Assembly: GCF_000213785.1 (NCBI RefSeq)
Contig: NC_015557.1
Span: 372,001 to 436,000, forward strand
Direction of reading: 5' to 3'
DNA: 64,000 bases
Source: Hydrogenobaculum sp. 3684
GTDB taxonomy: Bacteria; Aquificota; Aquificia; Aquificales; Aquificaceae
The position numbers were made by a program, and so were the translations under genes. Positions 21,712-46,743 of the stretch are shown here, piece after piece. Within the stretch, counting starts at the first letter, position 1. Each line of letters opens with the position of its first letter. The notes below the pieces were generated by a model. The model saw only the letters and a list, made by a program, of their open reading frames with translations, did no database searches and had not been told where the DNA came from.

Positions 21712-22152
21712 ATGTTAAAGCGGGGAGTGGTTGTTTTAGGGTTTTTTCTACTTGGACATTTATCTTTTTCTAAACCACTAAAACTTGATATAAAAATACC
21801 ATATAAGGATGTAAATTTCAAAACTAAACATCGTGCATACACAAGTGTATCATCCCCTTTACCAAGAGATGAAAAGCAAAGTGTAGGATTTTCATTCTTT
21901 TTCAATAGACTTCCTTCTGTAAGCGCTATAGTGGACAATATCAGATCTCTTAATTTATCAAAAACTTATCAAGAACCACCCCCAGAGATATACACCTCTG
22001 ATATAAGAAGACATGCTGATTATTACGAAAAAGATATTATTACCAAAAATACATATATAAGACCTACCAACAAAGGCAATGAACTTGTTCAACTTTATAA
22101 AAACGATCCTCAGCTGGATTTTGGTGTAGCCCTAAACGCTAGTTTCAAATAG
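21712..22152 (+). CDS. Putative secreted protein of unknown function
   Basis: The protein has 146 residues with an N-terminal signal peptide (MLKRGVVVLGFFLLGHLSFS), so it is probably periplasmic. The mature part is rich in Lys, Pro, Ser and Tyr, has no cysteine and matches no family I know. The ATG at 21712 is preferred over one at 21631, because the earlier one would lie before the TATAAT box and inside the aspS coding region. The 265-bp gap to cydA follows. Confidence 0.55.
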   Translation: MLKRGVVVLGFFLLGHLSFSKPLKLDIKIPYKDVNFKTKHRAYTSVSSPLPRDEKQSVGFSFFFNRLPSVSAIVDNIRSLNLSKTYQEPPPEIYTSDIRRHADYYEKDIITKNTYIRPTNKGNELVQLYKNDPQLDFGVALNASFK

Positions 22153-22417
22153 TAAAAACTTGATTTTAAAAGCTAATGTGCCTGCATAGTAGCAAAAGTC
22201 TTTTTAGAATTTATTTTTGGTTAGTATGTATATACTTTTTATATAAAAATAGTTTTACACACATATTTCACAATGCTTATATATTATGAGTTATTTTCAT
22301 TTTACTATTATCATATGATATATTTCATTGTTATAAGATAATTTTTAAGTTAAATTAAATTGATGTAGGTTGGTTGATGCTAATCAACCAGCAATCTTTT
22401 AAAAGGAGGTATAGCTT
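22153..22417 (+). promoter_or_regulatory. cydAB upstream region with several AT-rich tracts
   Basis: I see no gene in these 265 bp. The stretch is strongly AT-rich, with possible -10 boxes (for example TATAAG at about 22332), and ends with the FNR-type palindrome and the AAAGGAGG ribosome site of cydA. Confidence 0.5.
22371..22390 (+). promoter_or_regulatory. FNR/CRP-family operator upstream of cydAB
   Basis: The 20-bp perfect palindrome TGGTTGAT-GCTA-ATCAACCA contains TTGATGCTAATCAA (22374-22387), exactly the FNR consensus TTGAT-N4-ATCAA. Its centre is about 37 bp before the cydA ATG, so it would lie at or downstream of the transcription start, a position that usually means repression. The same sequence could also form an RNA hairpin in the leader. 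Confidence 0.7.
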
Positions 22418-23975: not shown

Positions 23976-25016
23976 ATGGGTATATTACCAGATGGACTTT
24001 TTACCTTACAAGGTTTGTGGTTTTTGATAGCAGGTGTATTTTTAATTGGCTACTCAATAACCGATGGATTTGATTTGGGTAGTGCTTTCCCTATGATATT
24101 TATGAAAAGCGAATATGACAGAATAGCTCTTTATAATTCTGTTGCACCAGTATGGGATGGAAATGAGGTTTGGCTTATAGCTGGTGGGGGTATGCTCTTT
24201 GCCGCCTTCCCCACCGTGTATGCCGCTTCTTTCTCTGGATTCTATTTGGCTATACTCCTTGTTTTGTGGGCTTTAATAGGTAGAGCTGTGGCTTTTGAAT
24301 ACCGCAACAAAAGAGAGTCCATGGCTTGGAGACATACCTTTGATTTTATATACTGGCTTGGTAATGTTTTACCTGCTATTCTTTTTGGATGTGCCGTAGG
24401 AAACGCTGTAGTAGGAGTACCTATAGATCAAGACGCTGTATATCACGGCACTTTCTTCACGCTTTTAAGACCAGTACCTCTTGCAATGGGATTGGTAAGT
24501 CTTTTCATGTTTGCTATGCATGGAGCAGCTTATCTGTTGCTTAAAACCGAAGGTTCTGTTTTTGAGATGGCTAAAAAGTATGCTAGCATAAGTGTTATAG
24601 GATATGTAATATCTGTAATATTAACAAACGTACTAGCCATGCAAGAAGCCCCATTTTTGTATAAAAACTATTTTGCTTATCCAATACTTTTTGCTATACC
24701 TCTAGTGATGTTTGTAGGTGTTGTGCTCTATGTAAGCTTACTAAAATCTGGTAAATACGAAAAGATGGTTTATGCATCTGGGCTTGTTAACGCTTTCACT
24801 GTTCTAAATGTAGCTTGCGCTTCTTTCCCAGTACTAATGCGCTCAAGTATAAATCCAGATTACAGTCTAACAGTGTTTAACGCTTCTTCTTCTACCCTCA
24901 CTCTAACAGTGATGCTTATTGTAACGGTTATATTTATGCCTATAGTTATATATTATACTAGGTATGCGTATAAGGTATTTAGTGGAAAAGTAAGTGGAGA
25001 AAAGAGTTATTATTAA
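23976..25016 (+). CDS. cydB: Cytochrome bd quinol oxidase subunit II
   Basis: CydB is the structural partner of CydA, with about eight helices and the family motifs GYSITDGFDLG and WDGNEVWLIAGGG. I take the ATG at 23976, since GAGGAGG ends 8 nt before it and the upstream GTG at 23967 overlaps that site. It is 346 residues long. No cydX-like small ORF or cydDC genes follow; a terminator does. Confidence 0.95.
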   Translation: MGILPDGLFTLQGLWFLIAGVFLIGYSITDGFDLGSAFPMIFMKSEYDRIALYNSVAPVWDGNEVWLIAGGGMLFAAFPTVYAASFSGFYLAILLVLWALIGRAVAFEYRNKRESMAWRHTFDFIYWLGNVLPAILFGCAVGNAVVGVPIDQDAVYHGTFFTLLRPVPLAMGLVSLFMFAMHGAAYLLLKTEGSVFEMAKKYASISVIGYVISVILTNVLAMQEAPFLYKNYFAYPILFAIPLVMFVGVVLYVSLLKSGKYEKMVYASGLVNAFTVLNVACASFPVLMRSSINPDYSLTVFNASSSTLTLTVMLIVTVIFMPIVIYYTRYAYKVFSGKVSGEKSYY

Positions 25017-46692: not shown

Positions 46693-46743
46693 TATGATAC
46701 GTATCAGTTTATATGAAAAATACTTTGTATATGGCTTTTGATA

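Follow-up and report, generated by a model that had tools for sequence, protein, structure and literature searches.

An exact match to the FNR consensus lies just upstream of cydAB in the hot-spring bacterium Hydrogenobaculum sp. 3684, and it raises the question of which regulator, if any, reads this element. The window considered here is a stretch of 64,000 nucleotides of that genome, in which the local gene order is aspS, a small ORF, cydA, cydB, an obgE-like gene and a gapA-like gene (non-cyd names assigned by eye). The small ORF (21715-22149, 145 aa) has no Pfam or NCBIfam match, and each of the five Hydrogenobaculum genomes compared below has a counterpart ahead of its Rieske-cyd locus. 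The box itself, TTGATGCTAATCAA at 22374-22387 on the + strand, is centred in TGGTTGAT-GCTA-ATCAACCA (22371-22390), a palindrome whose end is separated from the cydA ATG (22418) by 27 nt. It matches the consensus TTGATnnnnATCAA of E. coli FNR, which is described as a partial repressor of cydAB (PMC3688515). A preliminary description took the box as a sign of FNR-type control and argued that a site so near the start codon points to repression, or to a leader hairpin, more than to activation. The latter point holds; the former is taken up below. Features of the locus are collected in Table 1.

Table 1. Features of the cyd locus and its upstream region, in window coordinates
Feature	Position	Strand	Basis or remark
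Proposed distal operator GTTAGTATGTATATACTTTT	22220..22239	+	PWM and orthologous sites
Candidate CRP/FNR-family box ATGATATATTTCAT, TGATN4ATCA with one mismatch	22315..22328	+	about 41 bp before guessed transcription start
Guessed promoter TTGTTA-16-TTAAAT	22328..22355	+	conserved blocks in genus alignment
Proposed promoter-proximal operator GTTGGT-N8-ATCAAC	22369..22388	+	centre 2 bp upstream of FNR-box centre
Possible RNA hairpin, 10-bp stem, terminator-like, weak T tail	22369..22392	+	folding
20-bp palindrome TGGTTGATGCTAATCAACCA	22371..22390	+	contains exact FNR-consensus box 22374-22387
Deletion scar	22391..22393	+	3 nt in window versus 573 in G003, 568 in G004, 570 in G002, 112 in G001
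cydA ribosome-binding site AGGAGG	22404..22409	+	read directly
cydA, cytochrome bd oxidase subunit I, 514 aa	22418..23962	+	PF01654, E 1.8e-162
cydB, cytochrome bd oxidase subunit II	23976..25016	+	PF02322, E 5e-85; TIGR00203

Occurrence of the FNR-type box

Scanning the 64-kb window for TTGATN4ATCAA returned the box before cydA as the sole exact match, confirming what the preliminary description had noted of the consensus within its 20-bp palindrome. Shuffled windows contained a mean of 0.14 exact boxes, with at least one in 13 of 100, and matches with one mismatch numbered 9 in the window against 4.75 expected, 7 of the 9 being coding. Across the genome (one contig, 1,552,775 bp) there are 7 exact boxes. 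When the ORFs are read by eye, four of these fall within genes (response regulator, ClpB-like, BioB-like and phosphorylase-like, also named by eye) and three between genes, including the one before cydA; two of the three intergenic boxes also overlap mechanically listed ORFs. Given the shuffle, one-mismatch and genome-wide counts, the exact box alone is not improbable. What is notable is its intergenic placement before cydA, in a window of which intergenic DNA makes up about 7%.

The preliminary description had proposed a search for the same box before other respiratory genes, and named the lack of any such match as grounds for refuting its reading. In the whole genome, no recognisable respiratory gene lies downstream of any of the other six exact boxes, so that for exact matches the refuting outcome is what was observed. 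Defining an FNR regulon by box counting was abandoned for the same reason, the seven exact boxes keeping no respiratory company.

Conservation within Hydrogenobaculum and candidate CRP/FNR regulators

The window genome (G000), taken as reference, was compared with four congeners (G001, G002, G003 and G004). The site reads GTTGGTTGATGCTAATCAAC in the window and GTTGGTTGACGCTAATCAAC, GTTGGTTTATGCTAATCAAC, GTTGGTTGGCGCTAATCGAC and GTTGGTAAAAGTTAACCAAT in the congeners. Just upstream, GTTGGT is invariant in all five genomes. The FNR box is exact in one of the five, and the congeners carry 1, 1, 3 and 4 changes in its 10 arm bases. Two overlapping frames can thus be compared: across the congeners, cells departing from the window number 3 of 48 in an operator frame of 6+6 arm positions (GTTGGT-N8-ATCAAC) and 9 of 40 in the FNR arms. 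At positions that belong to one frame only, changes occupy 7 of 16 cells for the FNR frame (four bases) and 1 of 24 for the operator frame (six bases; Fisher p 0.004, from lineages that are not independent). The FNR frame is exact in the window alone because the bases peculiar to it vary among the congeners. Taken together, the FNR likeness of the box looks accidental, and the conserved part resembles a different, putative repressor-type site that recurs before respiratory genes of relatives. Of the FNR-type control first proposed, one part stands, in that the site looks regulatory and its place is conserved; the other part, FNR as the binder, does not fit a box whose distinguishing bases are the variable ones, and the FNR reading of the site is weak.

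The genus alignment also bears on the origin of the element. In G003 and G004, and in G002 as far as its contigs reach, the small ORF and cydA are separated by a Rieske gene, whose protein matches TIGR01416. The interval from the palindrome to the cydA leader is occupied by this gene in those three genomes and by a remnant in G001, where the first 29 Rieske codons alone are recognisable; the window keeps a scar of a few nucleotides (Table 1). CydA of G003 is 97% identical to that of the window and CydA of G001 91%. As G003 is the closer of the two, the two losses look independent, and the Rieske paralogue looks to have been lost twice, apparently separately, in the window genome and in G001. 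With the Rieske gene lost from the window, the leader now adjoins cydA; on this alignment, the flagged element is the presumptive former leader of a Rieske-cydAB operon, now abutting cydA. Another Rieske gene, 79% identical, remains in the window genome (G000:1429874). The palindrome was also considered as a copy of the bc1 Rieske promoter, and this was rejected, the region upstream of the remaining bc1 Rieske gene being without the site in the window genome and in G001.

FNR is distinguished by a characteristic [4Fe-4S] cysteine cluster. The genome does encode FNR/CRP homologs, as the preliminary description anticipated: two proteins, L031 and L032, score over the Pfam cut-off. The N-terminal cysteine cluster of FNR is absent from both (Cys 4, 147 and Cys 43, 77, 96, 167, respectively), a second point against FNR as the binder. 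With the Fnr model NF008365, L031 scores 42 against a cut-off of 228 and L032 is unmatched. L031 (247 aa) occurs in 59 of 61 genomes, has DNR (3dkw) as its nearest solved relative by sequence, and carries a helix, VET[AT]IR, that is constant in the orthologues compared. L032 (209 aa, G000:C1:1127046-1127672) has the recognition helix REVVSR, whose E..SR pattern we take to be of the FNR type, and its gene adjoins a truncated globin gene (PF01152, bacterial-type). Among the five genomes L032 is intact only in the window genome; it is broken in G003 and G004 and was not found in G001 and G002.

This distribution would allow the FNR-like L032 to read the box and repress cydAB in response to O2 or NO, in the window strain only. 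The sole genome of the five with an exact box is also the sole one with an intact L032, and both the helix and the globin neighbour agree with such a role. The match is, however, a single coincidence among five genomes, and an FNR-like box was seen neither at the globin-regulator operon of L032 itself nor, as a candidate autoregulatory box, just upstream of 9 orthologues. The genomic boxes lacking respiratory neighbours and the missing cysteine cluster weigh in the same direction, making this reading quite unlikely.

A better CRP/FNR candidate than the flagged box may be the TGAT box at 22315-22328. Its counterpart in G002 is perfect (TGATTAGAATCA), and perfect boxes occur in several Aquificales cydA promoters. 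The guessed promoter beside it comes from the genus alignment and was not listed by a consensus promoter scan. The near-universal Aquificales CRP-family protein L031 could bind this upstream box, with a second dimer on the leader box. In support, the leader box contains one of the two perfect TGATN4ATCA sites in the window, both of which are intergenic, and the helix of L031 is constant as noted above. The other perfect site is ATGATACGTATCAG at 46694-46707, about 80 bp before fumC (46775) and conserved in G003; it is likely a CRP/FNR-family site. Against such double binding, the leader copy is perfect in none of the four congeners, and the specificity of L031 is itself inferred. Occupancy of the leader box by L031 appears very improbable.

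A recurrent operator-like motif in related genomes

The region upstream of Hydrogenothermaceae cydA carries GTTAGT-N8-ACTAAC or a near variant, and a second copy at -106 to -152 is frequent. With up to two mismatches allowed in the 400 bp upstream of cydA, the motif occurs in 13 of 15 non-Hydrogenobaculum promoters, and in 12 of the 15 it lies at -34 to -50. The misses are L051 and L055, of which L051 still scores 15.6 bits at -41 by position weight matrix (PWM); at L046 the site is at -382, ahead of a small ORF that precedes cydA. The 15 include the three Hydrogenothermaceae loci of a further set of 80, obtained after the motif had been defined, and all three carry it at -34 to -50 (L244 was not counted separately from G001). 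The six cydA loci of family f2 (L056-L061), inspected by eye outside the motif scan, show no such site.

The motif extends beyond cyd. At one mismatch, 17 Hydrogenothermaceae genomes contain 63 occurrences versus 31 for the reversed control, and of the 11 genomes with cydA, 9 have the motif ahead of the cyd operon. Further sites stand just before genes for the bc1 Rieske protein, a sulfide:quinone-oxidoreductase-like protein, a membrane 4Fe-4S protein and ATP synthase a, and before metallo-beta-lactamase/rhodanese and cysteine-synthase-like genes. Two observations count against an operator: housekeeping genes also lie downstream of some Hydrogenothermaceae sites, and the strict motif (one mismatch) is unenriched in the five Hydrogenobaculum genomes plus G007, with 8 occurrences against 12 in the control. 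In several Hydrogenothermaceae genomes (L175, L079, L081 and L082) the cyd operon and a gene for a HemN-type coproporphyrinogen oxidase are transcribed divergently, and operator copies lie in the interval. At L187 (G050:C15) an operator-like site precedes a nor-type cluster, and a CRP-family gene lies within a few kb.

For comparison with Hydrogenobaculum, a PWM was derived from 18 Hydrogenothermaceae cyd sites, proximal and distal copies together, with no Hydrogenobaculum sequence; its training includes the three later loci, of which it is not independent. Set against GTTAGT-N8-ACTAAC, the proximal site of the window has 5 of 6 symmetric pairs and scores 6.4 bits, a value reached by 76 of 2000 shuffles of the 250-bp upstream region. 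Taken singly this is a weak match, which counts against an operator. The proximal sites of G003, G004, G001 and G002 score 5.1, 6.4, -0.2 and 8.1 bits, the low value in G001 being a further point against. The relaxed form GTTRGT-N8-AYYAAC has the window proximal site as its only exact match in the genome; it was relaxed after the genus sequences had been seen, so this exactness is partly by construction, and the PWM from the other family is the fairer test.

A second copy is present further upstream. The distal site scores 16.4 bits in G004 (reached by 1 of 2000 shuffles) and 14.8 bits in G002 (0 of 2000), and 5.4 to 9.4 bits in the window genome, G003 and G001. By PWM, the proximal and distal cyd sites of the window rank 4th and 5th in 199,733 bp of their own genome. 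Placement follows that in the Hydrogenothermaceae, with one site between -34 and -50 relative to the first gene and a copy upstream, although the spacing between the two, 149 bp in the window, is longer than in that family.

Together, these observations also bear on whether the element has a function at all. A functionless chance palindrome in an AT-rich leader would be consistent with the frequency of exact boxes in shuffled windows, but the invariant GTTGGT, the place kept in five genomes, the second copy and the recurrence in relatives all argue otherwise, and chance is hardly credible as the explanation.

Outside cyd, the gene for the membrane 4Fe-4S protein is a second predicted target common to Hydrogenobaculum and the Hydrogenothermaceae. 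The Hydrogenobaculum homologue is 31% identical to the Hydrogenothermaceae protein (E 3e-37), and its gene is preceded by GTTAGTAAGATATGATTAAC at -41 in G003 and G001, with one mismatch (ATTAGT...) in the window genome. These sites are low on the PWM, their scores being reached by 61, 49 and 130 of 2000 shuffles in G003, G001 and the window genome. Two further matches, at G000:262919 and G003:265602, were discarded because they fall within a coding gene.

The same symmetry could act in RNA. An RNA stem-loop in the mRNA leader before the ribosome-binding site, acting originally on Rieske-cydAB, might alter cydAB mRNA stability, translation or early termination. The cydA leader folds with a z of -2.59 and has a terminator-like look, and a 6-bp stem, GUUGGU/AYCRAY, pairs in 30 of 30 cells over the five Hydrogenobaculum genomes; the 8-bp stem of the preliminary description pairs in 31 of 40. 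The arm changes within the genus, three in all, are one-sided and G-U compatible, a pattern that the hairpin fits too and that counts against an operator. The same changes include no compensatory pair, however, and the T tail is 4 nt. Pairing of the 6-bp stem is broken in 14 of 78 cells at 13 homologous Hydrogenothermaceae sites, and similar sites lie 100-190 bp upstream, probably outside the cyd leader. These stem failures, along with the distal copies, favour a DNA operator over a hairpin, and the stem-loop is considered unlikely.

Proposed mechanism and relation to known systems

The explanation preferred here, to which we would give an even chance, is that the locus retains a two-site operator from an ancestral Rieske-cydAB operon, with the palindrome as its promoter-proximal half and a putative dimeric repressor as its reader. 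This candidate would recognize GTTRGT/AYYAAC half-sites spaced 8 bp apart, one pair at 22369-22388, just past the presumed transcription start, and the other at 22220-22239 upstream. Its occupancy would block cydAB transcription, in response to a signal that is presumably redox or electron-donor related. The TGAT box at 22315-22328 may serve a CRP/FNR-family activator. In the window genome the exact FNR consensus would have arisen partly within the half-site spacer and need not be read. Among the places examined, no obvious dedicated regulator gene carries the operator site.

More broadly, GTTAGT-N8-ACTAAC may mark an undescribed Aquificota respiratory regulon under a putative repressor other than FNR, ArcA or Rex. 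In the Hydrogenothermaceae this regulon would coordinate cytochrome bd, bc1, sulfide oxidation, ATP synthase and nitric-oxide-reductase-linked genes, with a diverged form surviving at Hydrogenobaculum cydAB. This wider proposal is tentative, its probability falling a little short of even. The literature listings searched on Aquificales and Hydrogenobaculum, together with passages of PMC3665934, yielded no paper on the cydA-leader site and nothing on cytochrome bd control in Aquificota. If an operator common to these respiratory genes is real, it offers a direct handle on the regulator through DNA-affinity purification. The locus also carries a caution: perfect agreement with a consensus, when seen in a single genome, can be an accident of that lineage within a different, older site.

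Like the FNR box at E. coli cydAB, as described in PMC3688515, the Hydrogenobaculum box is an exact consensus before cydAB in a place compatible with repression; unlike the E. coli site, which lies at -53.5, it lies past the guessed start. The E. coli FNR system further differs in that the Hydrogenobaculum genus has no conserved consensus, no Fe-S FNR was found in the genome, and the conserved half-sites stand in another frame.

Half-sites resembling TTAGT occur in TetR-type operators. The present site shares with these a palindrome near the promoter, and TetR proteins are available (4 in G000), but no TetR gene is linked to the operator sites examined. As a candidate regulator, TetR was set aside: such proteins occur in 59 of 61 genomes, and near-universal presence offers no discrimination.

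The Rex operator, TTGTGAAnnnnTTCACAA, is a known cyd repressor site, and Rex was suggested here by the half-site spacing. It was rejected as the regulator, with the Rex DNA-binding domain PF06971 over cut-off in 0 of 61 genomes (one sub-threshold fragment, in G023) in a search that detected it in 8 of 14 control genomes. Although the Hydrogenobaculum half-site, GTTRGT, also differs from that of Rex, the two operators are alike in having half-sites 8 bp apart, a position near the transcription start and targets in energy metabolism.
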